Made by a program: the position numbers and the translations under genes
Notes under the pieces: generated by a model
Told to the model about the DNA's origin: nothing
The model's input: only the letters and a program-made list of their open reading frames with translations
Databases searched by the model: none
DNA from: Candidatus Zixiibacteriota bacterium
Lineage (GTDB): Bacteria > Zixibacteria > MSB-5A5 > DG-27
Reading direction: 5' to 3'
NCBI GenBank assembly: GCA_030605835.1
Contig: JAUWHO010000029.1
Location: 1-64,000, forward strand
Length of the DNA: 64,000 nucleotides
Shown here: positions 37,884 through 57,497 of the stretch, one piece after another
Position numbering within the stretch: position 1 is the stretch's first letter
Layout of the letters: the number at the start of each line of letters is the position of its first letter

Positions 37884-38061
37884 GCCTGATGGGGCTGGCC
37901 CTTTAGCAGATTGCTATCTTCCAGAGTAAGTATAAGCTTGAGTGGTGGACCGGTTGCGTGAAAACAGCGCTAGCAAAACACAAGCGGAGAACCCTCCATT
38001 TCACTCCGGTGGAGGAGCTCCTCGCAGACCCCTCCTGAGAAACTGTTTTATCTGAATCCCC

Positions 38062-39579: not shown

Positions 39580-39643
39580 GTTATCTACGCTCCCTTCTGA
39601 TGAGGTTGTGAGTAGCTGTGATCCTAAACCGTTCCGATCTTGA

Positions 39644-40681: not shown

Positions 40682-40782
40682 TATCCTCTCCTGTGATGGC
40701 ATCTCATATATCGACCGCTTATTATTCGAGCTTGACCGAACTCATCCACATCCCGCCGGGCTTTTGCTTAACAACGCCGCCA

Positions 40783-40810
40783 AATATAGCCTCACGCTCC
40801 TGTTTGTCAA
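40783..40810 (-). promoter_or_regulatory. promoter of galT-glgA
   Basis: On the - strand, TTGACA (40805-40810), 16 bases, TATATT (40783-40788). Confidence 0.75.
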
Positions 40811-40975
40811 GCCCGATCTGGTTAACGGCTAATGGTAAATAGTGAATAGCAAATCGTCCCCCCCCCTCAACCCTTGAAGATCAATTCACGGCAGCTTGCA
40901 CGCCTCAGGTAGGATTGAGACCGCATCCGATCTGAAAGCTAAATCTCAAGTTTTCCAGGGATTGTGAAAAAAGAG

Positions 40976-41004
40976 TTGACGGGGGAACCAATAGAGGTTA
41001 TAAG
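40976..41004 (+). promoter_or_regulatory. promoter of the PerR/Fur-type regulator
   Basis: TTGACG (40976-40981), 17 bases, TATAAG (40999-41004). Transcription would start only a few bases before the ATG at 41017, so the real start codon may be further inside. Confidence 0.7.
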
Positions 41005-41016
41005 GGTTATGTAGGA

Positions 41017-41502
41017 ATGGTTACTATTACGAATAAGGAACCCCTGTTGTCCCATAACCGAAAATTCAGGATGACTCGACAGCGTCAGGTCATCTTAGAG
41101 GAGATCAAAAAGGTCCGCACCCACCCGACTGCCGACCAGCTTTACGAGATGGCTCGGCGGCGACTGCCGCACATCAGTCTGGGCACTGTTTACCGTAACT
41201 TAGAGATTCTGTCCGAATGCGGGATGGTGCAGAAACTGGACTTGGGTGGTGCTCAGAGGCGATTTGACGGCAACACAAAAAAACACTATCATGTCCACTG
41301 CACTCGTTGTGGTCGTGTCGATGATGTGCCAATTGAAGCAGTAGTTAAGATCCAGACCACCTTTCAGGGTGCGAGCAACTATAAGATAACCGGGCACAAA
41401 CTGGAGCTTCTGGGGTTATGTCCCCAGTGTAAGAAGGCGAAGAAAGCTCTAACGAAGAGGCCGGGGCGAAGGGCAGGAAGAAAAAGTAACAGCCATCCCT
41501 GA
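41017..41502 (+). CDS. Fur-family metalloregulator, PerR-like
   Basis: A 161-residue DNA-binding repressor that senses metal or peroxide. The winged helix contains MTRQRQVILEEIKK, HPTADQLYEMARRRLPHISLGTVYRNLEILSECGMV. Metal-site features are the His of HPTAD, RRFDGN...HYHVHC and two structural CxxC pairs (CTRC and CPQC). The Asp in FDGN and the His of HPTAD fit the PerR-type regulatory site. A Lys/Arg-rich tail of about 20 residues follows. It stands at the head of the oxidative-stress island, so it is the natural candidate for controlling it. A TTG near 41050, behind AAGGA, could be the true start, which would drop about 11 residues. Confidence 0.9.
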   Translation: MVTITNKEPLLSHNRKFRMTRQRQVILEEIKKVRTHPTADQLYEMARRRLPHISLGTVYRNLEILSECGMVQKLDLGGAQRRFDGNTKKHYHVHCTRCGRVDDVPIEAVVKIQTTFQGASNYKITGHKLELLGLCPQCKKAKKALTKRPGRRAGRKSNSHP

Positions 41503-41579
41503 GCGAGAAAATGTGAGGCTTACAAGCTCAGTAAATACAGACGATACCATTAATCCGCTGATGCGAGAGGAGAAGTAAA

Positions 41580-42155
41580 ATGGCTAAAATGAAGGGAACG
41601 AAAACTGAGAGAAACCTGCTCACCGCTTTCGCGGGCGAGTCTCAGGCGCGCAACCGTTACACCTATTTCGCCAGTAAAGCGAAAAAGGAGGGGCTCGAGC
41701 AGATAGCAGCCATCTTCGGGGAGACATCTAACCAGGAGAAAGAGCACGCCGAGAGGCTCTTCAAGCTACTGCAGGGAGGCGAAGTTGAGGTTCAGGCAGC
41801 ATTCCCGGCCGGAGTGATTGGGACCACCGCGGAAAACCTCAAGGCCGCTGCCGGCGGAGAAAACTACGAGTGGACCGATATGTATCCCTCCTTCGCCAAG
41901 GTTGCCCGGGAGGAGGGTTTCGAAGAGATCGCCGAGATATTCGAAGCCATCGCCGTGGCTGAGAAGCAACACGAGAAGCGTTACCTCGGCCTTCTGGCGA
42001 ATGTCGAAGCCGGCACCGTGTTTAGAAAGGATAAACCTGTCGTCTGGCGCTGCCTCAACTGCGGCTATCTGCATGAAGGCAAGGAGGCACCGGAGCTCTG
42101 CCCCGCCTGTGCCCATCCCCGAGCTTACTACGAGCTTCTGTGTGAGAACTGGTAA
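41580..42155 (+). CDS. rubrerythrin
   Basis: A non-heme diiron peroxidase that reduces hydrogen peroxide in anaerobes. The 191-residue protein has a ferritin-like domain ([44 protein letters not shown]) and a C-terminal rubredoxin domain with CLNC and CPAC binding Fe(Cys)4. Length and domain order are those of classical rubrerythrin. It lies 77 bases after the regulator gene with an ATG behind GAGGAGAAG. Electrons probably come from the rubredoxin and the reductant system encoded downstream. Confidence 0.96.
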
Positions 42156-42163
42156 TCGAGGAA

Positions 42164-42193
42164 TTGACAACCACTTGACTGGCACTTTATCAT
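42164..42193 (+). promoter_or_regulatory. putative promoter for korAB
   Basis: TTGACA (42164-42169), 18 bases, TATCAT (42188-42193), directly after the rubrerythrin stop. The leader of about 110 bases contains no gene. Confidence 0.5.
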
Positions 42194-42311
42194 TAAGTAA
42201 GATGCCGAGGCAGGGGGTTCAAATCCTCAAGCCTGCAACCTCCACCGATTGTGGCACCGATAGAGTCGGCCCCGATGATGACACTGAACAGCTCCGAGGT
42301 CAGAGGATGAT

Positions 42312-43994
42312 ATGAGTGACGGCTCCTTCAACATACTCATCGGTGGAGAGGCCGGTCAGGGACTGGCGACCATCGGGGAGTTGCTCGCCAAGGCTTTTGG
42401 GCGCGGCGGTTACTCGCTTGTCACGACTTCAACTTATGAATCGCGGGTTCGTGGCGGTCACAGCACTGTGGCCCTGCGAGTGAGCGCTGAGAAGGTCGCC
42501 TCTCCCAGCGAATCCTTCGATCTGCTGGTCGCCCTGAATCCCGAATCCGCGAAGCTCCATCGGAAGGAGCTCTCCACTCAGGGGCTTATCATCCTGGATG
42601 AGGCTTTTCAGGTCGACGACGAGGCCTGTATCAGAGTTCCATTTAAAGAGCTGGCCAAAGGGAAGTTCTCAAACATCGCCGCCGTGGGAGTTGTCGGTTT
42701 CCTCCTCGGCCTTGAGGAGCAATCACTCCTCGGGGTGCTCGTGGACTTCTTCGGCAAGAAGAAACCCCAGCTGGCCGGAGAGAATCGAGAGACCTTGGCA
42801 AAGGCATTTCGGTGGGCTGCACAGCTGCCCTCTTCATTCCATCGAAAACTCACCCTTATCTCGGATCCAGCGCCGCGCCTGGTTATGAATGGAAACCAGG
42901 CCATTGCTCTGGGGGCGCTGTCAGCGGGGGTGAAGTTCTGTTCCTTTTATCCGATGAGTCCGGCCACCTCCATCGCTATTGGGCTGATCGGGAAGGCGAG
43001 ACAGATGGGACTGGTGGTGGAGCAGGCAGAGGATGAGATCGCCGCCGTCAACATGGCCATCGGTGCCTCCTTCGCCGGCGCCCCCAGCTTGGTGGCCACC
43101 TCCGGAGGCGGGTTTGCATTGATGGTGGAGGCGGTGAGCCTAACGGCGGTATCTGAAACCCCGTTGGTGATTGTGGTGGCACAGCGCCCCGGTCCGGCTA
43201 CCGGGCTGCCAACGCGCACCGAGCAGGCGGATCTGGAGTTCGTCCTCCACGCTGGCCATGGGGAGTTTCCCCGGGCCATTTTCGCCCCCGGGACTGTCGA
43301 GGAGTGCTTTCATCTGACCCGCAAGGCCTTCGAGCTGGCAGAGCGATATCAGGGACCAATGTTTCTCTTAACGGATCAGTTCCTCGCCGATTCCTATCGT
43401 GCAGTAAAGCCCTTTGATCTGAAATCCATCTCCCCGGTTCAAGTCGCCAGCGAGGTCTCGGCGTTGTCAACCCCGTACTGCCGATATACTATCACCGACA
43501 GCGGGATTTCGCCCCGGCTCCTCCCCGGCAGGAGCGAACGCCTTGTCGTTGCGGACAGCCACGAGCATACCGAGGACGGCCATATCACGGAGGATCCTTC
43601 GATGCGCAAGCGCATGGTGGAAAAACGGCTGAGGAAGCTGGAGGGGATTCGGGCCGAGACGATTCCTCCAGACAAGAACGGAGATGTCAATCCAGAGCTG
43701 CTCTTGGTCTCCTGGGGCTGCAGCAAGGGGGCGGTGTCGGAGGCCGCCTCCCGGATGAGATCCGAAGGGATGAGCGTCAGCACCCTTCACTTCTCTCAAG
43801 TTTGGCCACTCATCTCAGAGCAGTTCCGGCATCACTTAGAAGCAGCCAAGGAGGTCGTCTGCGTTGAGGGTAACGCTACCGGACAACTGGCTAACCTGAT
43901 TCACCGCGTGACCGAATTTCAGATGGCGAGGAGAGTGCTTCGATACGACGGGCTGCCGCTGACCCCGGAGTCGATCCTGCGGGAGTTGAATTAG
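42312..43994 (+). CDS. korA: 2-oxoacid:ferredoxin oxidoreductase alpha subunit with fused gamma domain
   Basis: Part of the enzyme that oxidatively decarboxylates a 2-oxoacid such as 2-oxoglutarate with CoA and reduces ferredoxin. The 560-residue protein starts with a gamma domain (GGEAGQGLATIGELLAKAFGRGGYSL, YESRVRGGHSTVALRVS) followed by the pyrimidine-binding alpha domain (GNQAIALGALSAGVKFCSFYPMSPATSI, VVEQAEDEIAAVNMAIGASFAGAPSLVATSGGGFALM) and a C-terminal transketolase-like part. The fused order is that of KorA/OorA and archaeal KgorA. It starts with ATG behind AGAGGATGAT and lies 13 bases before korB. No separate ferredoxin subunit is present. Its place in the stress island suggests supply of low-potential electrons. 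Confidence 0.92.
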   Translation: MSDGSFNILIGGEAGQGLATIGELLAKAFGRGGYSLVTTSTYESRVRGGHSTVALRVSAEKVASPSESFDLLVALNPESAKLHRKELSTQGLIILDEAFQVDDEACIRVPFKELAKGKFSNIAAVGVVGFLLGLEEQSLLGVLVDFFGKKKPQLAGENRETLAKAFRWAAQLPSSFHRKLTLISDPAPRLVMNGNQAIALGALSAGVKFCSFYPMSPATSIAIGLIGKARQMGLVVEQAEDEIAAVNMAIGASFAGAPSLVATSGGGFALMVEAVSLTAVSETPLVIVVAQRPGPATGLPTRTEQADLEFVLHAGHGEFPRAIFAPGTVEECFHLTRKAFELAERYQGPMFLLTDQFLADSYRAVKPFDLKSISPVQVASEVSALSTPYCRYTITDSGISPRLLPGRSERLVVADSHEHTEDGHITEDPSMRKRMVEKRLRKLEGIRAETIPPDKNGDVNPELLLVSWGCSKGAVSEAASRMRSEGMSVSTLHFSQVWPLISEQFRHHLEAAKEVVCVEGNATGQLANLIHRVTEFQMARRVLRYDGLPLTPESILRELN

Positions 43995-44007
43995 GGCGAG
44001 GAGAAGG

Positions 44008-44859
44008 ATGGTAACAATCGACGATTACGGAGACTACCAGACCGCCTGGTGCCCCGGCTGTGGGAATTTCCCGATTCTTGAGGCGGTCAAAAAGGCTCTG
44101 GCGGCAAGTAAGTTAGAGCCACATCAGGTGCTGTTGGTCTCCGGCATCGGCCAGGCTGCCAAAACCCCCCATTACATAAACGCCAACATCTTCAATGGCT
44201 TGCACGGTCGGGCCCTGCCGGTGGCCACCGGGGCTAAGCTCGCCTACCCCGAGCTCACCGTTGTGGTCGAGAGCGGAGATGGGTGTGTTTATGCCGAGGG
44301 CGGCAACCATTTTCTAGCTGCCATCCGACGCAACCCCGATCTGACTCTCCTGGTCCACAACAACCAGGTTTACGGTCTGACCAAGGGACAGGCCAGCCCC
44401 ACCTCAGAAGGGGACTTCGTCACTAAAGCTCAGCCGCAAGGGATGACCTCCTATCCCTTCAATGCCGTCGCAGTTGCCGTAAGCATGCAGGCCAGTTTCG
44501 TCGCCCGCGGCTTTTCCGGCCTCGGCGATCACTTGGCGGAGCTGATCCGGCTTGCGATTGCCCATCGAGGGCTTTCGCTTGTTGAGGTGTTGCAGCCGTG
44601 CGTCTCCTTCAACAAGCTCAACACCTACGCCTGGTACAAGAAACGATGCCAAATCCTGCCACCTGAGCATGACCCCACCAACTTTGAAGCCGCCCTGAGA
44701 GTCGCCTTTGAGTGGGGAGAGAAAATCCCCCTGGGCCTCATCTACCGGAACGAAAGGACCGTTTTCGAGGATCGGTTTTCCGCTCTCGATCGGGGGCCAT
44801 TGGTGGTGCAGGAGGTCGACCTCGAGAAATTGACAGAGATTATGGAGGAGTATCGATGA
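44008..44859 (+). CDS. korB: 2-oxoacid:ferredoxin oxidoreductase beta subunit
   Basis: Thiamine diphosphate-binding partner of KorA. The 283-residue protein has WCPGCGNFPILEAVKKAL at the N-terminus, ATGAKLAYPELTVVVESGDGCVYAEGGNHFLAAIRRN containing the GDG...N ThDP/Mg motif, and NNQVYGLTKGQASPTS. The length is normal for KorB. The exact 2-oxoacid cannot be read directly. The start ATG follows GAGGAGAAGG, 13 bases after korA. Confidence 0.93.
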   Translation: MVTIDDYGDYQTAWCPGCGNFPILEAVKKALAASKLEPHQVLLVSGIGQAAKTPHYINANIFNGLHGRALPVATGAKLAYPELTVVVESGDGCVYAEGGNHFLAAIRRNPDLTLLVHNNQVYGLTKGQASPTSEGDFVTKAQPQGMTSYPFNAVAVAVSMQASFVARGFSGLGDHLAELIRLAIAHRGLSLVEVLQPCVSFNKLNTYAWYKKRCQILPPEHDPTNFEAALRVAFEWGEKIPLGLIYRNERTVFEDRFSALDRGPLVVQEVDLEKLTEIMEEYR

Positions 44860-44964
44860 GGAATCTTCGGTGCGGAGTTGCGCCTGAGAAACCAATTCGA
44901 GTAGAACGATACAGTCAAAACTGAGAAGCTGCATGATAGTTTGTGGCCAACACAGAGGTGACTT

Positions 44965-45477
44965 ATGACCGTTGAGGAAGCAATCAAAACCGCCATCGAG
45001 TACGAGACCAGAGTGCGGGATGTCTACGCAGATGCTGTGAAACAGACTGCCGACCCGGTGGGAAAACGCATCTTGGGGGTGTTGGCTAACGAAGAACAGC
45101 ACCACTTAGACTATCTGCGAAGCAGACTTGAGCAATGGAAGACAACCGCGGAGGTGACCACGGAGGGACTGAAAACTGCCATCCCCTCCCGAAAGGCCAT
45201 AGAAGCAGGGGTGAACAAGCTCAAAAGCCAGATGGCCGGTCAGGACCGCGGCGTTGCCGAGCTGCAAATACTCAAAAAAGCTCTGGATGTAGAGCTGGAG
45301 ACCAGCAACTTCTACAAGAAGATGGTCAAAGAGCTGCCGGCTGAAGGGCAAGAGCTGTTCGCGCGTTTCGTGGAGATCGAGGAGGGTCATCTCGCCATCG
45401 TTCAGGCCGAGCTTGACTACGCCAGCGGCACCGGTTTCTGGTTCGATTTCATGGAGTTCAACCTTGAGGGAGCATGA
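44965..45477 (+). CDS. ferritin-like diiron protein 1 (rubrerythrin-type fold, no rubredoxin domain)
   Basis: A 170-residue four-helix protein with two metal half-sites: EYETRVRDVY with NEEQHHLDYL (E...ExxH), and VELETSNFY with EIEEGHLAI. This is the duplicated E...ExxH pattern of the rubrerythrin and ferritin-like superfamily, so a diiron centre is expected. The usual rubredoxin domain is absent. The C-terminus ends with an aromatic tail (GTGFWFDFMEFNLEGA), shared in style with the next protein. Probably a peroxide-handling or iron-binding protein. First of four such small genes in the island. Confidence 0.85.
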   Translation: MTVEEAIKTAIEYETRVRDVYADAVKQTADPVGKRILGVLANEEQHHLDYLRSRLEQWKTTAEVTTEGLKTAIPSRKAIEAGVNKLKSQMAGQDRGVAELQILKKALDVELETSNFYKKMVKELPAEGQELFARFVEIEEGHLAIVQAELDYASGTGFWFDFMEFNLEGA

Positions 45478-45536
45478 AAAGCTTTGTATGCTTAAACTCC
45501 TGAGATAAACCCTAATGATTCGGGGGATAGTAACAG

Positions 45537-46049
45537 ATGGATAAAGCGACGAAACGTATTGCCGAGGGGCTGCTGAAGGCCATCCAGTTGGAGGTTGACG
45601 GTCAACATTTCTACCGGATGGCGGCGAAGAGCACCGCCGACCCCAAAGGTTGGGAGGTGTTTGAGAGGCTGGCGGAGGAAGAGCAGGAACACTTGAGCTT
45701 TCTTAGAACTCAGTATAAGTCCATACTTGAGACCGGAGCGCCCAACAAAGAGGTCAAGTTGGGTTCTCAGGCTAAATTGGCTGACACCAGTCCCATCTTT
45801 TCTGAACAGATCCGGGAGCGCCTGGGCAAAGCTCACTACGAGATGAGCGCCCTCTCCATCGGAATTCAGCTGGAGCTCTCCGCGATCAAATTCTACAGAG
45901 CTGAAGCTGAGGCAGTGACGGACCCAACGGTGCGGTCGTTGTACACCGAGCTGGCGGAGTGGGAATCCGGTCACCACAACGCCTTACTGCGCCAGCAGGA
46001 GATGTTGAAGGAGGATTACTGGCACGCCGGAGGATTTTATCCTTTCTGA
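45537..46049 (+). CDS. ferritin-like diiron protein 2
   Basis: A 170-residue four-helix protein with LEVDGQHFYRM/EEEQEHLSFL and QLELSAIKFYRAEAE/EWESGHHNALL, giving two E...ExxH half-sites. An aromatic tail (YWHAGGFYPF) ends the protein, like that of the preceding gene. The gap to that gene is 59 bases and both run in the same direction. It may form a heteromer or a duplicate with the first protein. Specific function not known. Confidence 0.83.
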   Translation: MDKATKRIAEGLLKAIQLEVDGQHFYRMAAKSTADPKGWEVFERLAEEEQEHLSFLRTQYKSILETGAPNKEVKLGSQAKLADTSPIFSEQIRERLGKAHYEMSALSIGIQLELSAIKFYRAEAEAVTDPTVRSLYTELAEWESGHHNALLRQQEMLKEDYWHAGGFYPF

Positions 46050-46207
46050 CTCCAAAGCGCAAATGGTTCAGAAACAGGGTTTTTATTAATATAAGGGAGA
46101 AGTCAGTCTGTATACGATATTTTCCTCACTATGACACAAACGTTGTTAATAGTAATTAAGATACGAGCTTGTCGAAAAAACTTTCACTTTAGATAGGAGA
46201 CCTTAAG

Positions 46208-46582
46208 ATGACCGAAAGATTACAGATCTACAAGTGCGAAATCTGCGGCAACATCGTGGAGATGCTTCACGAGGGGAAAGGAGAGCTGGTCTGCTGCGGC
46301 CAGCCGATGAAGCTCTACCAGGAGAACACCGTAGATGCCGCCAGGGAGAAGCACGTCCCGGTGGTGGAGAAGACGGCCTCGGGTTTCAAAGTGAAGGTGG
46401 GGAGTGTCCCCCATCCCATGGAGGAGAAACACTACATCGAGTGGATTGAACTCATAGCCGACGGAAAAGCCTACCGTCACTTCCTGAAGCCGGGGGAGGC
46501 TGCCGAGGCTACATTCCAGATCGATGCCGAGCAGGTCACCGCCCGTGAATACTGCAACCTGCACGGATTGTGGAAGGCGTAA
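46208..46582 (+). CDS. dfx: desulfoferrodoxin (superoxide reductase, two-iron type)
   Basis: Reduces superoxide to peroxide without releasing oxygen. The 124-residue protein has an N-terminal desulforedoxin-like Fe(Cys)4 site (CEIC and the adjacent pair CC of VCCGQPM) and the superoxide reductase domain with His ligands in [24 protein letters not shown] and the Cys/His of CNLHGLWK. This is the two-iron class. Electrons would come from rubredoxin, encoded at 55125. Confidence 0.96.
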
Positions 46583-46656
46583 CAGATCTGGCAACAGCGC
46601 GGTTTGCTGAAACGTTGCTGTCAACGGAGATATTATTATTACTAAAGGAGGTAACA

Positions 46657-47109
46657 ATGAAACTCAAGTCGGTCGATGAGATTCTGGATTTCGCAGTGGA
46701 GAAGGAGCAGGAAGCTGCAGAGTTCTATACCGATCTGGCTGGTCGGGTGGAGCAATCGTGGATGGTTAAGGCCTTCGAAGATTTCGCCAGGGAGGAGGTG
46801 AAACACAAACAGAAGTTGCTGAAAATCAAGGAGGGAAAGCTATTGTTGCCTGCCGCCGATAAGGTCACAGACCTGAAGATTGCAGACTATTTGGTGGACG
46901 TAATCCCCAGCCCGGAAATCGACTACCAGGCGGCACTCATCCTGGCGATGAAGAAGGAGAAGGCCTCTTTCAGACTCTACAACGATCTTGCCGCCACCAC
47001 TGCCGACGAGAACCTCAGAGCAACTCTGCTAAGCCTCGCTCAAGAGGAGGCCAAACACAAATTGCGGCTCGAGGTCGAGTACGACGAGCATTTCCTGACG
47101 GAGGATTGA
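46657..47109 (+). CDS. ferritin-like diiron protein 3
   Basis: A 150-residue protein starting at the ATG at 46657, behind AAAGGAGG. Half-sites are EKEQEAAEFY/AREEVKHKQK and KKEKASFRLY/AQEEAKHKLR, the E...ExxH pattern twice. No rubredoxin domain. It lies between superoxide reductase and thiol peroxidase, so a role in peroxide removal or iron sequestration is likely. Confidence 0.86.
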   Translation: MKLKSVDEILDFAVEKEQEAAEFYTDLAGRVEQSWMVKAFEDFAREEVKHKQKLLKIKEGKLLLPAADKVTDLKIADYLVDVIPSPEIDYQAALILAMKKEKASFRLYNDLAATTADENLRATLLSLAQEEAKHKLRLEVEYDEHFLTED

Positions 47110-47166
47110 GACTATCGGTGCTGCTGTCACCGACCCGGGGGAAAGACTTTCAGAGTAAACAATCAT

Positions 47167-47186
47167 CCGCGGTTTCAAGACCGCGG
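47167..47186 (+). other. stem-loop before tpx
   Basis: CCGCGGT (47167-47173) and ACCGCGG (47180-47186) flank a 6-base loop directly before the AGGAG of tpx. It may regulate or stabilise the tpx message. Confidence 0.4.
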
Positions 47187-47198
47187 CAGGAGATTTCA

Positions 47199-47714
47199 AT
47201 GAAAGAACGAAGCGGAATTGCAACTATCGAAGGAAAGCCATTGACCCTGGTCGGGGAGGAGGTCAAAGTCGGTGATAAGGCTCCAGACTTCACGGTGCTG
47301 GACAACGATCTCTCGCCAGTCAACTTTTCGTCGTACCGAGGCAAAGTGTGCGTTATCTCCTCGGTCCCCTCTTTGGACACCCCGGTGTGTGACACCGAGA
47401 CCAGGAGGTTCAACCAGGAGGCCGGCAGGCTCGGCTCCGATGTCGTCATTCTCACCATCAGCATGGATTTGCCCTTCGCCCAAAAGCGGTGGTGTGGCGC
47501 CGCGGGGGTGGATAAGGTGCAGACTCTGTCCGACCACCGCGAGGCCTCCTTCGGCACCGCCTACGGGGTGCTGATCAAAGAACTGAGGCTTCTTGCCAGG
47601 GCGATATTCGTGGTGGATCGGGACGGGATCATTCAATATATTCAGCTGGTCGAGGAGCTCACCAAAGAGCCCGACTACGAGGCGGTGCTGAATGCGGTGA
47701 GGAAGTTAACTTGA
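47199..47714 (+). CDS. tpx: thiol peroxidase (Tpx family)
   Basis: An atypical 2-Cys peroxiredoxin that reduces hydrogen and lipid peroxides with thioredoxin. The 171-residue protein has the peroxidatic Cys in SLDTPVCDTETRRFN and the resolving Cys in KRWCGAAGV. The start ATG at 47199 follows CAGGAGATTTC; a longer frame upstream is not needed. Its product and the superoxide reductase could work in series. Confidence 0.95.
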   Translation: MKERSGIATIEGKPLTLVGEEVKVGDKAPDFTVLDNDLSPVNFSSYRGKVCVISSVPSLDTPVCDTETRRFNQEAGRLGSDVVILTISMDLPFAQKRWCGAAGVDKVQTLSDHREASFGTAYGVLIKELRLLARAIFVVDRDGIIQYIQLVEELTKEPDYEAVLNAVRKLT

Positions 47715-47845
47715 GTGTGTCTGGCTAGTTCAACAGATTTCTATCTGTAAATAGAAGCGATTGATCTCTGAGCATCTTTCTGTGTTTCCAAGCGGAAACG
47801 GATCCAGGGAGTTTGGTAACAATCGAGACAGCGGAGGACATTATT

Positions 47846-49318
47846 ATGAGAGAAGTAATGCTCTCGATGTCCTTGCTCCTACTTTTGGTTAGCACCGTTG
47901 GGGCGACGATGCAGAGCGAGGACACCCAGAACTGCATAGCTTGTCACGCCAGTGTCACCCCCGGAATTGTTGCAGATTGGGAGAAGAGTCGTCATGCCAA
48001 GAGGACTCCAGCTGAGGCTCTGAAAGCAGAGACGTTAAAAAGACGGGTTTCAGCAAGCAATGTTCCAGACAGACTTGCAGGGACTGTGGTCGGATGTGCC
48101 GAATGCCACACCATGAACCCGGAAAAGCATAAAGACAGTTTCGACCACAACGGTTATACAGTCCACATCGTGGTCACTCCCCCCGACTGTGCCACCTGCC
48201 ATCCGACGGAGAGGGCTCAGTACGAGCAGAATATCATGTCTTACGCCCACGGCAACCTCAACGACAATCCCCTTTACGGTGCCTTAGTTACCAGCGTTAA
48301 CGGCCTTCAGACTTTTGAGAAGATGAAGACCTCTCTTAGAGCTCCCGATGAGGAGACCAATTCTGAATCCTGCTTTTATTGCCATGGAACGAAAGTTGAA
48401 GTCAAACAAATGAGGGCCCGGGAGACTTCTATGGGGGATATGGAGTTCCCTCTTCTCTCCGGCTGGCCCAATCAGGGGGTGGGGCGTCTGAATCCCGACG
48501 GTAGCATGGGAGCTTGCACCTCCTGTCACACCCGACATCAGTTTTCCATTGAAATGGCAAGGAAACCTCACACCTGTGGGGAATGCCACAAAGGACCCGA
48601 CGTCCCCGCCTACAAGGTCTACCAGGTCAGCAAACACGGAAACATCTATTCTTCCCTGAGCGACGATTGGAATTTTAGTAATGTCCCCTGGGTGGTGGGT
48701 AAAGACTTTACCGCTCCCACCTGTGCCACCTGCCATGTCAGCTTGATCGTTACCGACGATGGTGAGGTCGTGGCCCAGAGAAGCCACCGGATGAATGACC
48801 GCCTCAGTTGGAGGATTTTCGGGCTCATCTATGCCCACCCTCACCCGAGATCTCCCAACACCACCATTATCAAGAATAGAGCCGGTCTTCCGCTCCCCAC
48901 CGAACTCACCGGTGAACCAGTGTCCAAATATCTGATTGACGAAAAGGAGCAGGCCGAGCGTCGTGGTAAGATGCAGAAGATCTGCCTCACCTGTCACGGC
49001 TTTGAGTGGGTCGAGGGACATTTCGCCCGCTTCGAGAACAGCCTCAAGACCACTAACGAGATGACCTTGACTGCTACCAAAATACTGATGACTGCCTGGG
49101 AGAAAGGTGTGGCCCAAGGGTTACCTCAGGGGGCAAATATCTTTGATGAGGCTATCGAAAAGATGTGGGTGGAAGAGTGGCTCTTCTTTGCCAACTCTAC
49201 CCGTTTTGCTTCTGCGATGGCAGGGGCGGACTACGGAGCCTTTGCTAACGGCCGCTGGTATATGTCCAAGAACCTCCAGGAAATGCTTGATTGGCTGGAA
49301 TTCAAACTGAAAGACTAG
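47846..49318 (+). CDS. octaheme c-type cytochrome, HAO-like, copy 1
   Basis: A 490-residue exported protein with a signal peptide and eight CxxCH heme motifs (CIACH, CAECH, CATCH, CFYCH, CTSCH, CGECH, CATCH, CLTCH). The spacing and C-terminal region ([25 protein letters not shown]) fit the octaheme hydroxylamine oxidoreductase superfamily. Members oxidise hydroxylamine or hydrazine, or in reverse reduce nitrite, hydroxylamine or tetrathionate; the direction depends on a cross-linked tyrosine that I cannot verify without an alignment. The start ATG at 47846 follows GGAGG. It sits between tpx and the arsenate reductase remnant in a cluster of oxidant-defence genes. Confidence 0.88.
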
Positions 49319-49334
49319 ACGACCTAGAGGCAGG

Positions 49335-49835
49335 ATGTCGAGTTACCAGGAGAGAGAGCAAATCCCCAGAAGCGCAAAGAGCCGGCTGCGAACCAGAGAA
49401 AAAGTGGAGCGGAGAGCCCTTTTTCTCTGCACGGACAACTCCTGCCGCTCTCAGATGGCAGAGGGCCTGTTGAGAGCGTTGGCTGGCGATGAGTTTGAAG
49501 CCCACAGCGCCGGCGCCAGAGCCGCCTTCAGTCCATCCCCTCACGATAGAAGTCTTGACAGAGATTACAGTAGATATGTCAAATCATAGAAGTAAATCGG
49601 TTGAGGAATTTATCGGAGAGAAGTTTGACTACCTAATAACCCTCTGTCGGGACTATGCCAGAGAGGTCTGCCCGGTCTTCCTCGGGAAGACGGGGGAAAA
49701 ATTGCACTGGAACTTTATAGACCCCGGGGAAGTTAAGAAAAAAACCGGGAGGCGATCGAAGGTTTCAGAAAGGTGAGAGAGCAAACAAAAGCGAAAATAG
49801 AAATCTTTGTACAAGAATCAAAGGAGCTTAGCTAA
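49335..49835 (+). pseudogene. arsC: arsenate reductase (LMW phosphatase type) broken by two frameshifts
   Basis: The first part encodes [19 protein letters not shown], with the phosphatase loop CTDNSCR, then HSAGAR. At about 49521 one extra base shifts the frame; dropping that G gives [17 protein letters not shown]. The second frame then covers KSVEEFIGEKFDYLITLCRDYAREVCPVF and LHWNFIDPGEV. At the A7 run 49738-49744 one base is missing; adding an A gives EAIEGFRKVREQ to a TAA at 49833-49835. The two shifts cancel, and the TAA overlaps the ATG of the next gene (TAATG). So either a recent pseudogene, an assembly error, or recoding. The intact protein would be a thioredoxin-type arsenate reductase of about 166 residues. 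Confidence 0.8.
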
Positions 49836-51043
49836 TGGCTGAACTTTCGGACAAAAAGAGGATATTAAAAGAGTTGATCAAGAAACTGCACCAGGGAGCA
49901 AGCCCCCAGGAGGTGAAGAAAGAGTTCCAAGAGGCTTTCGGGGATGTCACTCCGACAGCGATAGCCCAGGCCGAAGAGGAACTCATAAAGGAGGGGATGC
50001 CCAGAGAAGAGATCCACAGACTTTGCGACGTTCACATTGCGGCCTTCAGAGAGTCACTGGAGAGGCAAGAGACTTTGGCGCCTGAGGGACATCCCATCCA
50101 CATTCTCATGGAAGAGCACAAAATACTCCTGGGGTTTGCTGCTCGACTCAAGGATCTTTCCGGGAAGATGAAAACGAAAAGCGACTTCGGTTCTGTCGCC
50201 AACGAGATGGAACAGCTAAGAGAGCTGGAAAGACAGCTTAAGGATTCAGAGAGCCACTACCTCCGCGAGGAGAACGTACTTTTCCCTTATCTCGAAAAAC
50301 ATGGAATCACCCAGCCTCCGGCAATGATGTGGATGGACCACGACAAGATCAGAGAGATGAAGAAGAACCTCTATACGCTTGTCGACTCACGCGAGAGGCT
50401 GGTCTTTCAAGACTTCGTGAAGCAACTGGAGGAGTCGGCAATCTCACTGGCGGAGATGCTCTCCAGTCATTTCTTCAAGGAAAACAATATCCTCTTCCCA
50501 GCCGGCCTGAAGGTCATAGCGGAGAATGAATGGACGGAGATAAGACGGCAGTTTGACGACCTCGGCTACCCCTCCTTCACACCGGAATCCGCAAGGGCAG
50601 CCTTTGGAGGGATGGAGGCGCCAGTCTCTGAAGTTGAAGTCGTCGGCGCCCTGACTTTTGACACCGGGAGCATGTCAAAGAAGGAGATCGGGGCAATTTT
50701 CAGCGCTCTGCCGGTGGATATCACCTTCGTGGATAAGGATGGTACCGTCCGATTTTTCAGCCAAACCAAGGAGAGGATTTTCCCGAGAACGAAGGCGGTG
50801 ATCGGGCGGAAGGTTCAGCAATGCCACCCTGAGAAGAGCATACATGTAGTCAATAAGATCTTGGAGGATTTCAGAGGTGGCTTTCGAGAGGTGGCCGAGT
50901 TCTGGATTAACGTTGAGGGAAGATTAATCCATATCCGATATTTCCCTGTCCGTGACAAGCGAGGAGATTATCTCGGATGTGTGGAGGTGACCCAGGATAT
51001 TACGGACATAAAGAAGATTGAGGGAGAAAAGAGGTTATTATAA
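49835..51043 (+). CDS. DUF438 - hemerythrin - PAS protein
   Basis: A 402-residue cytoplasmic protein. Residues about 5-70 form a DUF438 helical domain (LKELIKKLHQGASPQEVKKEF). A hemerythrin-like domain follows, with metal ligands in HPIHILMEEHKILL, SHYLREENVLFPYLEKHG, MMWMDHDKIREM and SSHFFKENNILFPA. The C-terminal part is a PAS domain (LPVDITFVDKDGTVRFFSQTKERIFPRTKAVIGRKVQQCHPEKSIHVVNKIL). It may sense oxygen, nitric oxide or redox state and pass the signal to a partner. The ATG overlaps the arsC stop (TAATG), so translation was coupled to arsenate reductase. Confidence 0.88.
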   Translation: MAELSDKKRILKELIKKLHQGASPQEVKKEFQEAFGDVTPTAIAQAEEELIKEGMPREEIHRLCDVHIAAFRESLERQETLAPEGHPIHILMEEHKILLGFAARLKDLSGKMKTKSDFGSVANEMEQLRELERQLKDSESHYLREENVLFPYLEKHGITQPPAMMWMDHDKIREMKKNLYTLVDSRERLVFQDFVKQLEESAISLAEMLSSHFFKENNILFPAGLKVIAENEWTEIRRQFDDLGYPSFTPESARAAFGGMEAPVSEVEVVGALTFDTGSMSKKEIGAIFSALPVDITFVDKDGTVRFFSQTKERIFPRTKAVIGRKVQQCHPEKSIHVVNKILEDFRGGFREVAEFWINVEGRLIHIRYFPVRDKRGDYLGCVEVTQDITDIKKIEGEKRLL

Positions 51044-51183
51044 AAGGAACCTCGTCAGATAGTATATTCTCTTTTCGTTTGCACTTGCTGAGTTACCCTC
51101 CAAGTTCACACTACCCTGCAAACAGTATCAGTTATGCTACTGAAAGGAAGTTTCAGCCAAACTAAAATAATAAGGAGTGTGTC

Positions 51184-52419
51184 ATGAGCTACCGAGTGCT
51201 TCTCTTTTTCCTGCTGTGCTTGTTTCTGGCGTCCAACGCATTTGGTCACGAATGCATTGACTGCCACAAGAAAGTCACCCCCAACATCGTCTCCGATTGG
51301 CAACTGAGCAAACACCGCCCCAATGGAGTTGATTGCTCGCTGTGCCACGGTGATGGGCATAGGTCCGCTAAGGACGTAGAAAAGGTGGAAATTCCAACCC
51401 CTGAGACCTGTGCTAACTGTCACGAGACCCGAGTTGAACAGTTCAAGAATGGCAAACACGCTCTGGCCTGGGCGGCCATGAAGGCCATGCCGACTGCCCA
51501 CTGGCAGCCGATGGCACTTATGGAAGGGATGAAGGGTTGTGGTGGATGTCATAAGCTTGGACTGAAGACCGAGGCGGAGATAAGGGAGTTGAAGAGGGAT
51601 GGCGCCGGCTTTGGGGTGGCTTCGTGCGATGCCTGTCACACCCGACACCTCTTCTCCGCCGATGAGGCCAGACAACCTCAAGCCTGTCGAACCTGTCACA
51701 TGGGAATCGACCATCCCCAATGGGAGATGTATTCCTCTTCAAAGCACGGGGTTCGGCACTCGCTGAAGCAGACCGGGATCCTTCCTGAAACCGCAGCCGC
51801 CCCCACCTGCCAGACCTGCCACATGCAAGGAGGAGACCATGCGGTCCGAACTGCCTGGGGATTTCTGGCGGTGCGACTCCCGATGCCTGAAGACAAACAG
51901 TGGGCCAGAGACCGCGCCACCATTCTTCAAGGGCTTGGCGTCCTTGACCCCGAGGGGAACCCAACCCCACGGCTGGAGGTGGTGAAGGCCGCCGATGTTG
52001 TCCGACTGACACAAGAGGATTGGCAGCAGGAGCGGGATAAGATGCTGAAGACCTGCAATCAATGCCACTCCCTCAATTTCGCCAAAGGAGAGCTGGAAAA
52101 GGGTGATAAGATGATCGAGGAGGCAGACCACCTGATGGCAGAGGCGATTCGCACCGTGGCTTCGCTATACCAGGAGGGTATTCTTGCCAAACCGGAAAGC
52201 TATGCTTATCCTTTTCCGGACCTGCTCACATTCCACGACGCTCCCACGACGATTGAACAGAGGCTGTTCCTGATGTTTCTCGAACACCGCATGAGAACAT
52301 TCCAGGGCACCTTCCACGCCAATCCCGATTACGCCCTATGGTACGGCTGGAGTGAAATGCAGCGGGACATAACCGAGATTAAGACCATGGCTCAAGAGCT
52401 CAGGAGGAGGGGCAGGTGA
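51184..52419 (+). CDS. octaheme c-type cytochrome, HAO-like, copy 2
   Basis: A 411-residue exported protein with signal peptide MSYRVLLFFLLCLFLASNAFG and eight CxxCH motifs (CIDCH, CSLCH, CANCH, CGGCH, CDACH, CRTCH, CQTCH, CNQCH). The C-terminal half with RLFLMFLEHRMRTFQGTFHANPDYALWYGW is characteristic of the hydroxylamine oxidoreductase family. It is shorter than copy 1 and only distantly similar, so they are not a recent duplication. It starts behind AAGGAGTGTGTC. Likely a periplasmic nitrite, hydroxylamine or NO-handling reductase; the physiological substrate is unknown. Confidence 0.89.
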   Translation: MSYRVLLFFLLCLFLASNAFGHECIDCHKKVTPNIVSDWQLSKHRPNGVDCSLCHGDGHRSAKDVEKVEIPTPETCANCHETRVEQFKNGKHALAWAAMKAMPTAHWQPMALMEGMKGCGGCHKLGLKTEAEIRELKRDGAGFGVASCDACHTRHLFSADEARQPQACRTCHMGIDHPQWEMYSSSKHGVRHSLKQTGILPETAAAPTCQTCHMQGGDHAVRTAWGFLAVRLPMPEDKQWARDRATILQGLGVLDPEGNPTPRLEVVKAADVVRLTQEDWQQERDKMLKTCNQCHSLNFAKGELEKGDKMIEEADHLMAEAIRTVASLYQEGILAKPESYAYPFPDLLTFHDAPTTIEQRLFLMFLEHRMRTFQGTFHANPDYALWYGWSEMQRDITEIKTMAQELRRRGR

Positions 52420-52598
52420 CGGCGGCGAGGCCACTTCACCCGGTCCCGTGGAGCAAAGCATCTATCGAGGGAAAGGAATCACGACCGACCAAAAAGTCCA
52501 GCGTAGGAAGTCTCTGAAAGCCAGATTCCAAAGCGATGTCGAGCGTACCGCGGATCGCAAGTACTATAACCGATACTGCAAGCGAGGAGAAAACTGTC

Positions 52599-53117
52599 AT
52601 GCTGAGTGAAAAGATGCTGAAAGCCCTTAACCAGCAGATCAATGCCGAGCTCTACTCCTCTTATCTATACCTGTCGATGTCGGCATACTTCCAGTCCACT
52701 AACCTCGGCGGTTTCGCCAAGTGGATGCGGGTGCAGACCCAGGAAGAGCTGACCCATGCGATGAAGATCTACGACTACGTGAACGAGCGAGGAAATCGGG
52801 TCGTTCTCAAGCAGGTAGAGGAACCTCCCTCGGAATGGTCCTCTCCACTGGCAGCCTTTGAGGATACCTATCGACATGAACAGAAGGTCACCGGCATGAT
52901 TAACAAGCTGGTCAACCTCGCCGTCGAAGAAGGTGATCACGCCAGCAGCATCTTCCTGCAGTGGTTTGTGTCCGAGCAGGTGGAGGAGGAGGCCTCCGCG
53001 GACGAGATAGTGCAGAAACTGAAGCTAGTTGGCGACGACGGCGGTGCAATCTTCATGATCGACCGCGAGCTGGCTCAGAGGAGGTTCACTCCCCCGGCGG
53101 CCAAAACTAGTGGTTGA
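52599..53117 (+). CDS. ftnA: ferritin
   Basis: Iron-storage protein; oxidises and mineralises iron inside a 24-subunit shell. The 172-residue protein starts at the ATG at 52599 behind GCGAGGAGA. Ferroxidase residues lie in AELYSSYLYLSMSAYF, QEELTHAMKIYDYV and the helices containing DHASSIFLQWFVSEQVEEE. The length is normal for bacterial non-heme ferritin. Storing iron fits the peroxide-defence theme of the island. Confidence 0.95.
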   Translation: MLSEKMLKALNQQINAELYSSYLYLSMSAYFQSTNLGGFAKWMRVQTQEELTHAMKIYDYVNERGNRVVLKQVEEPPSEWSSPLAAFEDTYRHEQKVTGMINKLVNLAVEEGDHASSIFLQWFVSEQVEEEASADEIVQKLKLVGDDGGAIFMIDRELAQRRFTPPAAKTSG

Positions 53118-53178
53118 GCGGAGCTCATCTGACGCCAGAGGCCAGAGCGCTGCCTGCCCTGCGGTCTTGAAGGGGCAA

Positions 53179-53206
53179 TTGACATCACCAGTCGTCATCC
53201 TTAAAT
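53179..53206 (+). promoter_or_regulatory. putative promoter before ferritin-like protein 4
   Basis: TTGACA (53179-53184), 16 bases, TTAAAT (53201-53206). Moderate match. Confidence 0.45.
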
Positions 53207-53245
53207 TCAGTCGACTCGAGATGGTGAATTCTGAAAGGAGATACC

Positions 53246-53731
53246 ATGCCAGCTCCTGCAAAGGCAACGTTGGAAGGTTTAAGTAAGGGTATCCAGGCGG
53301 AACTCTCCGCCTACGTGTTCTACAAGAAGGCAATGGAGGTCACCAAGGACGACAAGCTGCGGGATCTTTTGGCAATACTCGCCGCCGAGGAGAAAGTTCA
53401 TTATCGTATCCTGGAGGGCCAATACGACAGTTTGGTCCGTTCCGAGATGTGGGTTAGCTACAATGATATTCTCAACAGGGAGGGATTGCCCGACATCGAC
53501 GAGAGGATGGCGGATGTTCACCTGAAGCTGTTGGAGGAGCTTACAGAGACCGCCTCGCCGATGCGGATCCTGGAAATTGCGCTGAGGTTAGAAGAGCAGG
53601 CGCGCGATCTGTATGCCGATTTAGGCCAGAAAACCGACGACCCCAACGGCAAAGAGACCTACGAGTATCTGGTCAAATTCGAGAACACCCACGTCAAAAA
53701 GATTCAGACTATGATGAAGGAGTTCAAATAG
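53246..53731 (+). CDS. ferritin-like diiron protein 4
   Basis: A 161-residue four-helix protein with GIQAELSAYVFYKKAMEV/AAEEKVHYRIL and RLEEQARDLYADLG/VKFENTHVKKIQ, giving two E...ExxH half-sites. No rubredoxin domain. It lies between ferritin and the flavodiiron protein gene, behind AAAGGAG. Probably acts in peroxide or iron handling; exact role unknown. Confidence 0.85.
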   Translation: MPAPAKATLEGLSKGIQAELSAYVFYKKAMEVTKDDKLRDLLAILAAEEKVHYRILEGQYDSLVRSEMWVSYNDILNREGLPDIDERMADVHLKLLEELTETASPMRILEIALRLEEQARDLYADLGQKTDDPNGKETYEYLVKFENTHVKKIQTMMKEFK

Positions 53732-53829
53732 GGGGATCTGATCGCAGACTCTTTCCAGGAGGCCAGGCTCTGCATCTGGATTCCCTACAACTTCAGAGGC
53801 AAACACCCACGTGAGGTTAAAATAACCCA

Positions 53830-55044
53830 ATGAGAGAACCCTTCCAGGCGGTGAGAGTGAGCAACCAGGTTTACTGGGTGGGTGCGATTGACTGGGGCTT
53901 GCGCGACTTCCACGGCTATGCGACCGAGCGCGGTTCGACCTATAACGCCTTTATCATTCTCGCGGACAAAGTCATCCTCATCGACACCGTCAAGGCTCCC
54001 TTCAAGGAGGAGATGCTCTCCCGCATCAGTTCCATCACCGACCCGGAGAAGATCGACTACATCATCTCCGACCATTCTGAGATGGATCATACTGGCTGTC
54101 TGCCGGAGGTGATAGAGATGGTGAAGCCGGAGAAGGTATTCGCCTCCGTTATGGGGGTCAAGGCTCTCTCCGAGCACTTTCATCTCGACCGGGAAATCGT
54201 GGCGGTGAAGGATGAAGAGAAACTCAGTCTGGGCACCATGAACTTGAAGTTCTTTGAGACCAGGATGCTCCATTGGCCGGACAGCATGTTCACCTACTTA
54301 GTGGAGGAGGAGCTGCTTTTCTCCCAAGACGCATTCGGCATGCACCTTGCAACCAGCGAGAGGTTCGATGACGAGATTGACGACAGTGTCCTGGAGTCTG
54401 AGGCCCGAAAATACTTCGCCAACATCTTACTGCCATATGCATCTTTAGTAACAAAGCTTCTCGAGAGGCTGGGCACACTCCACCTCAGCATCAAAACCAT
54501 AGCACCCGACCACGGACCCATCTGGAGGAGAGATGTAAACAAAATCTTGGATCTCTATTCTCAGTGGGCACTCCAGAGACCGACCAAAAAGGCGGTGGTG
54601 GCATACGACACCATGTGGGGAAGCACCGCCAAGATGGCCGCAGCGATCGGCGAGGGACTTAAACAGGGTGGAGCGAACCCCAGACTGATGCCGCTGCGGT
54701 CGCATAACCGCAGCGAGGTCGCCACTGAAATACTCGACGCCGGAGCACTTCTGGTTGGCTCCCCGACGCTCAACAACAATATCCTTCCAACAGTGGCCGA
54801 TGTTTTAACCTATCTTAAAGGTCTTAAGCCGCGCAATCTGATTGGAGGCGCCTTCGGCTCCTACGGCTGGAGCCCGGCGGGCGTGGGACAGGTGAAACAG
54901 ATGCTCCAGGAGATGAAAATTGACCTCGCAGGTGAACCTCTCAAGGTCAAATATGTGCCCGACAGCGATGCCCTTGAAAAGTGCTTCTCCTGGGGGGCAC
55001 TTATTGCAGAGAAGCTGAAGGAAATATGCGAGCGTGAACCGTGA
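53830..55044 (+). CDS. fprA: A-type flavoprotein (flavodiiron NO/O2 reductase)
   Basis: Reduces oxygen to water and/or nitric oxide to nitrous oxide, using electrons from rubredoxin. The 404-residue protein has an N-terminal metallo-beta-lactamase-like diiron domain (SDHSEMDHTGCLPE with the H-x-E-x-D-H motif) and a C-terminal flavodoxin domain (VVAYDTMWGSTAKMAAAIGEG, FMN-binding) with FGSYGWSPAGVGQ. There is no extra C-terminal extension, so it is class A. A rubredoxin gene follows 80 bases downstream, the usual partner. Confidence 0.96.
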   Translation: MREPFQAVRVSNQVYWVGAIDWGLRDFHGYATERGSTYNAFIILADKVILIDTVKAPFKEEMLSRISSITDPEKIDYIISDHSEMDHTGCLPEVIEMVKPEKVFASVMGVKALSEHFHLDREIVAVKDEEKLSLGTMNLKFFETRMLHWPDSMFTYLVEEELLFSQDAFGMHLATSERFDDEIDDSVLESEARKYFANILLPYASLVTKLLERLGTLHLSIKTIAPDHGPIWRRDVNKILDLYSQWALQRPTKKAVVAYDTMWGSTAKMAAAIGEGLKQGGANPRLMPLRSHNRSEVATEILDAGALLVGSPTLNNNILPTVADVLTYLKGLKPRNLIGGAFGSYGWSPAGVGQVKQMLQEMKIDLAGEPLKVKYVPDSDALEKCFSWGALIAEKLKEICEREP

Positions 55045-55124
55045 TACTGACTGAGAGGCAGATGAATCCATGCCGAGCAGACCTCACCCGCTGAAGGCAT
55101 TTAGCACAAGGGAGTGCAGAGGAT

Positions 55125-55286
55125 ATGAAAAAATACGTCTGTGACGTCTGTGGATACGTGTACGACCCCGAGGTGGGGGATCCCGAAAGCGATATCTCTC
55201 CCGGGACCGCATTCGAGGATCTTCCGGAGGACTGGGTTTGCCCGGTCTGCGGAGCCGGCAAGGAGGAGTTCTCCCCAGAAGAATAA
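55125..55286 (+). CDS. rubredoxin
   Basis: A 53-residue electron carrier with the Fe(Cys)4 motifs [17 protein letters not shown] and [12 protein letters not shown]. Starts with ATG at 55125 behind AGAGG and ends with TAA at 55284-55286. It lies just after the flavodiiron protein, to which it would pass electrons, and could also reduce the superoxide reductase and rubrerythrin encoded upstream. Last gene of the island. Confidence 0.95.
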
Positions 55287-55483
55287 TCTGCCCGGTACTC
55301 TCGACTTAACCACCGAAGCTCCATATTCGGGGGGAAGAACCCCGGGTGCCGCAGACCACAGACTTTGATCCCTGAGACCTGTTAGGTTGAAGCGGGTCTA
55401 ACGCGATGAGAAGCAGTCAATAATTGAGAGATATGTTGTCGCCGCTCGGTCGACCGGCTCCAGGTTCGGTCTTCTCGCTTCCC

Positions 55484-56182
55484 TCACCTTTTCGGTTTTC
55501 CGGCCACCAAGATCACGACCTCCCCTCGGAGGCCCTTCGAAGATACGTGAGTGAGTATCTCAGAGGTCTTACCCCTTCGGACCTCTTCGAACTTCTTGGT
55601 CAACTCTCTAGCGAGAACCGTTTGGCGGTCACCGAAGGTCCGGAAAATATCTTCAATCACCTGCTTGAGCCGGTGTCGAGATTCATAGAAGATGATCGTC
55701 CTCTCCTCCTCCTTAAGACTTTCTAGCTTCTTTAATCTCTTCGGCTGTTTCTGAGGTAGGTACCCTTCGAAGACGAAGCGGTCGGTGGGGAGCCCGGAGA
55801 CCACCAGAGCCGCTAAAAAGGCCGAAGGTCCAGGAACCGGGACTACCTCTATTCCCTCCCTGACTGCGGCCCGGACGAGATAGAAAGCGGGGTCAGAGAT
55901 TCCCGGGGTGCCGGCATCCGAGACCATGGCGATACTCCTACCGGATTTCAGAAAAGAGATTAACTTCGGAGTTTTCTTCTCCTTGTTGTGGTCATGATAG
56001 CTGGTCAGTTGGTTGTGGACCTCGTATCGCTGCAGCAACAGCCCGGTGTGGCGGGTGTCTTCGGCGGCGACTAAGTCCACCTGGGAGAGGACCCGAAGCG
56101 CCCGCAGGGTCATATCCTCCAGATTCCCGATGGGAGTGCTGACTATGTATAACTTCCCGTACTCGTCTGGAACTTCACTCAC
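55484..56182 (-). CDS. rsmI: 16S rRNA (cytidine1402-2'-O)-methyltransferase
   Basis: Methylates the ribose of C1402 in 16S rRNA. The 232-residue protein has YIVSTPIGNLEDMTLRALRVL at the N-terminus, EDTRHTGLLL, DAGTPGISDPAFYLV and VPVPGPSAFLAALVVSGLP, all typical for RsmI. GTG start. The C-terminus is shorter than the E. coli protein (286 residues), as in many other bacteria. Faces the preceding rubredoxin gene convergently. Confidence 0.95.
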   Translation of the reverse strand: MSEVPDEYGKLYIVSTPIGNLEDMTLRALRVLSQVDLVAAEDTRHTGLLLQRYEVHNQLTSYHDHNKEKKTPKLISFLKSGRSIAMVSDAGTPGISDPAFYLVRAAVREGIEVVPVPGPSAFLAALVVSGLPTDRFVFEGYLPQKQPKRLKKLESLKEEERTIIFYESRHRLKQVIEDIFRTFGDRQTVLARELTKKFEEVRRGKTSEILTHVSSKGLRGEVVILVAGKPKR

Positions 56183-56307
56183 GAGGCTGTCTCCTAAGGA
56201 GTGAATCTCATACCTTCAACACCAGCTGGCCCCTCAACTTTAATGACAGTTCTCGGGAAACATAGAACAGAAATCGCCCTGGCGCAAGAAGAGAAAACTC
56301 AAACCCC

Positions 56308-57126: not shown

Positions 57127-57497
57127 AGTCTCAGCCTTCTCAGACGGTCGATTTCGGCAGCGATCAAATCTAATCTTTCGTGCCGCAAAAGAGGCGAGGA
57201 GAAGCTCGCTCCTCTCACCTCTTCGGTGTCGATGGTGACGACCAAAAAATCATCTTCAAGGTAAGGAGACTTCGCCACCGCCCCTCCGTCGGGGCCGATC
57301 TGCAACGTTTGCCCCAAGAAGAGACTTTCCGCCGGATTTTCCGCTGAATCTCCTCCGGCACTGATTCGGGGTTCTAATCGTCCCGGATCCCATCTCAGTC
57401 TCCTTCCTTCCCACCAAGCCAGCCAAAACCGTCCCCTAACTTCGACCCCAGAATGATCCGGAACGCTCTGACGGGGTAGAGCCGTTAGCCAGCAACG
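57123..57497 (-). pseudogene. C-terminal remnant of a nitrilase-family amidase upstream of nadE
   Basis: The frame is open from 57497 to the TGA at 57123-57125, which overlaps the nadE ATG. The last 60 residues read LQIGPDGGAVAKSPYLEDDFLVVTIDTEEVRGASFSSPLLRHERLDL, matching the C-terminal part of carbon-nitrogen hydrolases that feed ammonia to NAD synthetase. The catalytic Glu-Lys-Cys region is missing, and the frame has a stop at 57498. The only clear start is a TTG at 57317. Upstream, the AT-rich radical SAM gene ends at 57485, so the nitrilase was probably cut by that insertion. I treat it as a broken gene; a short expressed peptide is possible. Confidence 0.65.

Follow-up and report, generated by a model that had tools for sequence, protein, structure and literature searches.

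A putative PerR-headed oxidant-defence island with a recurrent IhOCC-type octaheme cytochrome in a Candidatus Zixiibacteriota genome

Clusters headed by the regulator gene perR were described in 2004 as perR-rbr-roo in Geobacter and perR-rbr-rdl in Desulfovibrio vulgaris (PMC545781). A larger array, made up by 17 co-directional genes, lies on the plus strand at 41047-55286 of a 64,000-nucleotide stretch of Candidatus Zixiibacteriota DNA (assembly GCA_030605835.1, contig JAUWHO010000029.1; hereafter the window). An earlier note on this DNA had listed its genes and proposed an undescribed system. The gene content was confirmed gene by gene by Pfam and NCBIfam searches and CxxCH counts (Table 1); since perR-rbr-roo and perR-rbr-rdl have been known from 2004, the island is an enlarged variant of known clusters, not an undescribed system. 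What is new is the recurrent membership in PerR-headed clusters of an octaheme cytochrome of IhOCC type (OHC1) and of the 2-oxoacid oxidoreductase KorAB, of which no description was found in the part of the literature searched; at title and abstract level, no published link of octaheme cytochromes with rubrerythrin, or of PerR with HAO, was found. The locus is best read from its sequence as an anaerobe's defence island against oxidants, headed by PerR and modular in build. Rubredoxin would feed its cytoplasmic arm, KorAB being a possible source of electrons, and an octaheme cytochrome would form a periplasmic arm; we give this reading a probability of about 0.6.

Of 395 genomes sampled from the Desulfobacterota, the phylum of locus L032, 98 have homologues of ohc1 (E<=1e-130). 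Sixty-four ohc1 neighbourhoods, mostly 17 kb long (60 from the 98 genomes, plus L032, L034, L035 and L036), were read, and 20 stretches taken from 14 of these genomes served as controls. Two or more of eleven oxidant-defence query proteins are encoded in 23/64 ohc1 loci vs. 0/20 controls (Fisher p=6e-4, indicative only, since the loci are related), and 29/64 loci vs. 1/20 controls carry one or more of perR, rbr, sor, ftn and fdp. In an unsupervised clustering of the neighbours, superoxide reductase (SOR) and peroxiredoxin peak at 20 loci each, followed by rubredoxin (15), rubrerythrin and flavodiiron protein (FDP; 14 each), ferritin (12), PerR, a HEAT-repeat protein and a flavodoxin-like protein (10 each), and KorA (5). 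These families are missing in the controls, and nearly all members share the strand of ohc1. The order perR-rbr-rub-fdp-ohc1-sor-korA-korB of one locus (L107) illustrates the association. A five-heme cytochrome, a possible electron donor, is encoded directly before ohc1 in six loci. That ohc1 recurs in PerR-headed clusters of distant bacteria suggests that oxidant defence has a periplasmic arm so far overlooked.

KorA was detected in 6/64 Desulfobacterota ohc1 loci, five of which have it at most seven genes away from ohc1, as well as in several islands of the class to which the window belongs. The window KorA is 56-65% identical to the Desulfobacterota ohc1-cluster copies vs. 34-42% to class copies outside the genus; likewise, for perR, korAB, sor, tpx, ftn and fdp the copies in Desulfobacterota clusters are nearer than those seen in the class beyond the genus. 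In the ohc1 tree the window copy groups with the class island copies and the G030 copy (97*). The inclusion of ohc1 and korAB in the original proposal thus holds, both recurring in such clusters even in another phylum. KorAB passes both 2-oxoacid:acceptor oxidoreductase models over their cut-offs, and could serve as electron source.

Within the class, the only genome of the same genus compared is that of a sister species (G001, 52% complete). One of its contigs carries perR-rbr-korAB-flp1-flp2-sor-flp3-tpx-arsC-hhePAS next to the same glgA flank; another carries flp4, fdp and rub at the rsmI/nadE flank, beside cydAB. The two species are collinear, flanking genes included, save that ohc1 is absent between tpx and arsC in G001, and for a cydAB/ohc2-ftn difference that spans a contig break, the stretch matching ohc2-ftn falling at contig ends. 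The conservation that the earlier note proposed to check is seen in the close relative for both set and order; in other class families the set is kept, but the order is reshuffled. The island of G047 reads rub-flp-fdp-sor-ohc1-peptidase-arsC-hhePAS-ohc2-x-korAB, that of G059 perR-permease-rub-flp-fdp-ohc1-ferredoxin-arsC-hhePAS-korAB-tpx-like, and that of G063 perR, fdp (two ORFs), ohc1-hhePAS-...-ohc2-...-sor-...-rbr. As for loci of other class families, L067, L068 and L069 have ohc1 together with fdp and hhePAS, sor being present in L067 and L068, korAB in L067 and L069. Taken singly, rubrerythrin was found in 46/98 class genomes and FDP in 54/98 (both E<=1e-30), SOR in 23/98, KorA in 14/98 (E<=1e-60). 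Close ohc1 homologues (E<=1e-100) reside in 12/133 class genomes; copies in L033 and L092 adjoin a ferritin-like gene (that of L092 named by eye), and those in L087-L089 sit inside multiheme-cytochrome clusters.

The joint location of these genes is not due to chance, since it is found again in several families of the class. A loose collection, in which stress genes have been gathered without joint control and the octaheme cytochromes are respiratory enzymes nearby by chance, would account for the reshuffled order, the single PerR box (see below), the location of ohc2 mostly elsewhere in the class and the copies in L087-L089. It is hard to reconcile with the collinearity within the genus, and with the same-strand recurrence of ohc1 with SOR, rubrerythrin, FDP and PerR in a second phylum vs. 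0/20 controls, and is regarded as quite improbable.

The regulator at the head of the island is of PerR type, as first proposed. Its best PDB match is B. subtilis PerR (2FE3), relative to which the five metal ligands (H37, D85, H91, H93 and D104, B. subtilis numbering) are all conserved, and it is the only Fur-family match in the genome (96% complete). Translation probably starts at TTG 41047 rather than at ATG 41017, because the predicted operator overlaps the latter. This operator, a PerR box at the predicted promoter of perR itself, stands 3' of a TTGACG-17-TATAAG promoter unlisted by the consensus promoter scan, which requires a T at the last -10 position. The box is the top site in the window (18.2 vs. 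13.8 for the next) of a matrix built from published Desulfovibrio sites (PMC545781). A de novo palindrome search in 10 perR upstream regions, from the class and two Desulfobacterota, gave a single motif (score 121 vs. <=77 in shuffles), a 17-bp palindrome located at 41014-41030 and overlapping the box at 41010-41028. The box is thus supported twice, de novo and, independently, with the published sites. Genome-wide, no site but 41014-41030 matches the motif with fewer than 3 mismatches; the remaining sites carry 3, at a frequency no higher than in the control. In Desulfobacterota the best matrix site of the locus lies at perR in 10/10 perR-bearing ohc1 loci, and not at perR in the control holding the single perR found among the controls. 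In several genomes of the class (in the window at 40983-40988), a GGGAAC-like element resembling an ECF-sigma -35 element precedes the box by about 30 bp.

OHC1 and OHC2 have exactly eight CxxCH motifs each. The nearest solved relative of OHC1 is IhOCC (4QO5), aligned nearly over the full length (profile E=2.8e-160). IhOCC reduces nitrite and hydroxylamine; its host, Ignicoccus hospitalis, is a sulfur-reducing hyperthermophilic archaeon. Three residues before a conserved Gly, OHC1 features Phe464 where NeHAO has the cross-link Tyr467, and so lacks the tyrosine that marks oxidative HAO at the active heme. The Phe-type state, devoid of the cross-link Tyr, is taken to favour reduction (PMC8940962). 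OHC1 is accordingly classified, by its residues, as a reductive-type octaheme cytochrome of the HAO superfamily. In OHC2 a Tyr matches the kustc1061 Tyr, but a Leu matches NeHAO Tyr467, the alignments disagreeing. OHC2 homologues (51-81% identity) are widespread in the class, mostly outside such islands. Since ohc2 is located elsewhere in most class relatives, it was rejected as a core member, and the earlier assignment of ohc2 to an integrated system is not sustained.

The main rival is a pure nitrogen reading, in which the island serves nitrite ammonification or the response to nitrogen-oxide stress: nitrite and hydroxylamine would be reduced by OHC1 and OHC2, the FDP would act as NO reductase and the hemerythrin-PAS protein as NO sensor, oxidant genes being present since oxygen and nitrogen oxides come together. 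Both octaheme cytochromes belong to the HAO superfamily, the best NCBIfam models of the FDP are NO-reducing flavorubredoxins (below cut-off), and in a class relative (G031, L059:718-7573) genes for Hcp (Prismane), a ferredoxin, a distant octaheme cytochrome and a NapC-like cytochrome directly precede perR. Yet the regulator is PerR, not a nitric-oxide regulator, and the gene families that unsupervised clustering places around ohc1 deal with peroxide and superoxide, the listed ones including no cluster of Hcp or NrfA. We hold this rival to be unlikely, and nitrogen-oxide stress, named in the earlier note, is not upheld as main role, though nitrogen oxides are the substrates of the nearest octaheme cytochromes that have been studied. 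The neighbours of OHC1 suggest oxygen-derived species, the chemistry of its relatives suggests nitrogen oxides, and both chemistries are kept within the favoured reading of an oxidant-defence island. According to a review, D. vulgaris NrfA detoxifies NO, hydroxylamine and hydrogen peroxide (PMC12285233). A narrower proposal, that OHC1 is the periplasmic arm of PerR-linked defence and in Desulfobacterota and Zixibacteria mainly removes peroxide (or O2-derived species) rather than nitrogen oxides, KorAB feeding the cytoplasmic arm, is tentative and rather doubtful.

In the proposed working of the island, peroxide would oxidise PerR, derepressing perR-rbr and, by read-through, part of the downstream genes. 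KorAB would pass low-potential electrons, via ferredoxin or directly, to rubredoxin, which would feed superoxide reductase, rubrerythrin and FDP, and these would clear the cytoplasm of superoxide, peroxide and O2 (or NO). Tpx would remove peroxides, ferritin and the erythrin-like proteins may contribute iron storage and peroxide scavenging, and the hemerythrin-PAS protein may sense O2 or NO. In the periplasm, OHC1 would draw electrons from the quinol pool to reduce small oxidants: nitrite, NO, hydroxylamine and possibly H2O2.

Several observations weigh against this reading. Fewer than two defence families are found in 41/64 ohc1 loci, and the ohc1 tree requires at least 13 context changes, so the linkage of ohc1 has often been gained or lost; ohc1 was not found in the G001 genome (52% complete). 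Nitrogen oxides, not peroxide, are the substrates of the closest octaheme cytochromes characterised, and the step from KorAB to rubredoxin is a guess. As for regulation, the search for PerR boxes in the island promoters suggested by the earlier note yielded one strong box at the head, but none of comparable quality at other island promoters or elsewhere in the genome, and a box at every island promoter was rejected. A weak matrix site before sor (46146; score 13.0) falls within the range of shuffled windows and is not conserved in G001. Promoter-like sites at 42164, before korA, and at 53179, before flp4, are possible internal promoters, and a terminator search of the island revealed no excess. 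PerR may control only perR-rbr; with no other box of such quality, control beyond these genes rests on read-through. Of the joint regulation first assumed, the box at perR stands, while PerR control of the whole island is unsupported.

Table 1. Predicted features of the PerR-headed island (positions in the window)
Feature	Position	Strand	Evidence
Likely perR promoter TTGACG-17-TATAAG	40976..41004	+	Read from sequence; order of -35, -10 and box same in L032, L036
PerR box TGTAGGAATGGTTACTATT	41010..41028	+	17/19 identity to published D. desulfuricans perR site
PerR	41047..41502 (TTG start; longest ORF from 41017)	+	FUR Pfam
Rubrerythrin (rbr)	41580..42155	+	Pfam Rubrerythrin and RUBY_RBDX
KorA, 2-oxoacid oxidoreductase gamma-alpha fusion	42312..43994	+	TIGR03710 over cut-off
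KorB	44008..44859	+	TIGR02177 over cut-off
Erythrin-like protein 1 (flp1), without rubredoxin domain	44965..45477	+	Rubrerythrin Pfam
Erythrin-like protein 2 (flp2)	45537..46049	+	Rubrerythrin Pfam
Superoxide reductase/desulfoferrodoxin (sor)	46208..46582	+	TIGR00320 over cut-off
Erythrin-like protein 3 (flp3)	46657..47109	+	Rubrerythrin Pfam
Thiol peroxidase Tpx	47199..47714	+	NF001808 over cut-off
OHC1, IhOCC-type octaheme cytochrome c, apparent signal peptide	47846..49318	+	8 CxxCH; 4QO5 E=2.5e-126
LMW-phosphatase/ArsC-like gene, frameshifted	49335..49836	+	Two LMWPc pieces, different frames
DUF438-hemerythrin-PAS protein (hhePAS)	49835..51043	+	Pfam
OHC2, second HAO-superfamily octaheme cytochrome, apparent signal peptide	51184..52419	+	8 CxxCH; 6H5L E=1e-30
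Ferritin (ftn)	52599..53117	+	Ferritin Pfam
Erythrin-like protein 4 (flp4)	53246..53731	+	Rubrerythrin Pfam
Flavodiiron protein (fdp)	53830..55044	+	ODP and Flavodoxin_1 Pfam
Rubredoxin (rub)	55125..55286	+	Rubredoxin Pfam

The island genes (Table 1) are separated by gaps of 179 bp at most, and flanked by minus-strand glgA/galT on one side and rsmI/nadE on the other. The G+C content of the island (0.542 vs. 0.525 in the remainder of the window) gave no clear sign of horizontal transfer, and no RNA family was found at gathering threshold within 38000-58000. All four erythrin-like proteins lack a rubredoxin domain and feature two E...ExxH motifs each, as judged by eye. The arsC reported earlier is present as an LMW-phosphatase/ArsC-like gene, but is spread over three frames by two frameshifts; as the sister species carries an intact copy of 147 aa, the gene is here a pseudogene or an assembly error. 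It directly precedes hhePAS also in L057, L067 and L069; with the two adjacent in G001, L067 and L069, the pair may work together.

Among nine genomes compared, cydA resides in or near the islands of G001, G031 and G057, and was not found in or near those of G000, G047, G059, G063, G061 and G008, where octaheme cytochromes are found. A replacement of cydAB by octaheme cytochromes was not adopted, the genomes being nine only and a CydA-like gene lying near ohc1 in some Desulfobacterota loci. A class II fumarase gene (Pfam Lyase_1 and FumaraseC_C) is found in the L060 island (L060:11078-12469), a similar one, by eye, at L071:5936-7342. Defence clusters of both phyla include a ZIP-family metal transporter (L062:11978-12793, L138:7103-7936).

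Metagenome studies count HAO-like octaheme cytochromes with the genes of the nitrogen cycle; in one mat, for example, they ranked with the most abundant nitrogen genes (PMC8940962). If one widespread octaheme subfamily is part of the oxidant defence headed by PerR, these counts are misleading, and sulfate reducers as well as Zixibacteria possess an enzyme of periplasmic defence that is open to direct testing.

Among described proteins, D. vulgaris NrfA is a pentaheme cytochrome of a family different from OHC1, and is not reported as PerR-headed in the review (PMC12285233). The Kuenenia HAO-like octaheme cytochrome 6H5L is the best PDB match of OHC2, yet a distant one. IhOCC shares with OHC1 a near full-length alignment, eight hemes and a Phe replacing the HAO cross-link Tyr; it comes from I. 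hospitalis, whereas OHC1 is found in PerR-headed oxidant-defence clusters. As in the delta-proteobacterial PerR-headed clusters, perR comes first and rubrerythrin next, partners of flavodiiron and rubredoxin type are present, and a local PerR box lies at the promoter, the window box being nearly identical to the D. desulfuricans perR site. The island differs from those clusters in its 17 genes, which add KorAB, superoxide reductase, Tpx, ferritin, four erythrin-like proteins, a hemerythrin-PAS protein and two octaheme cytochromes.

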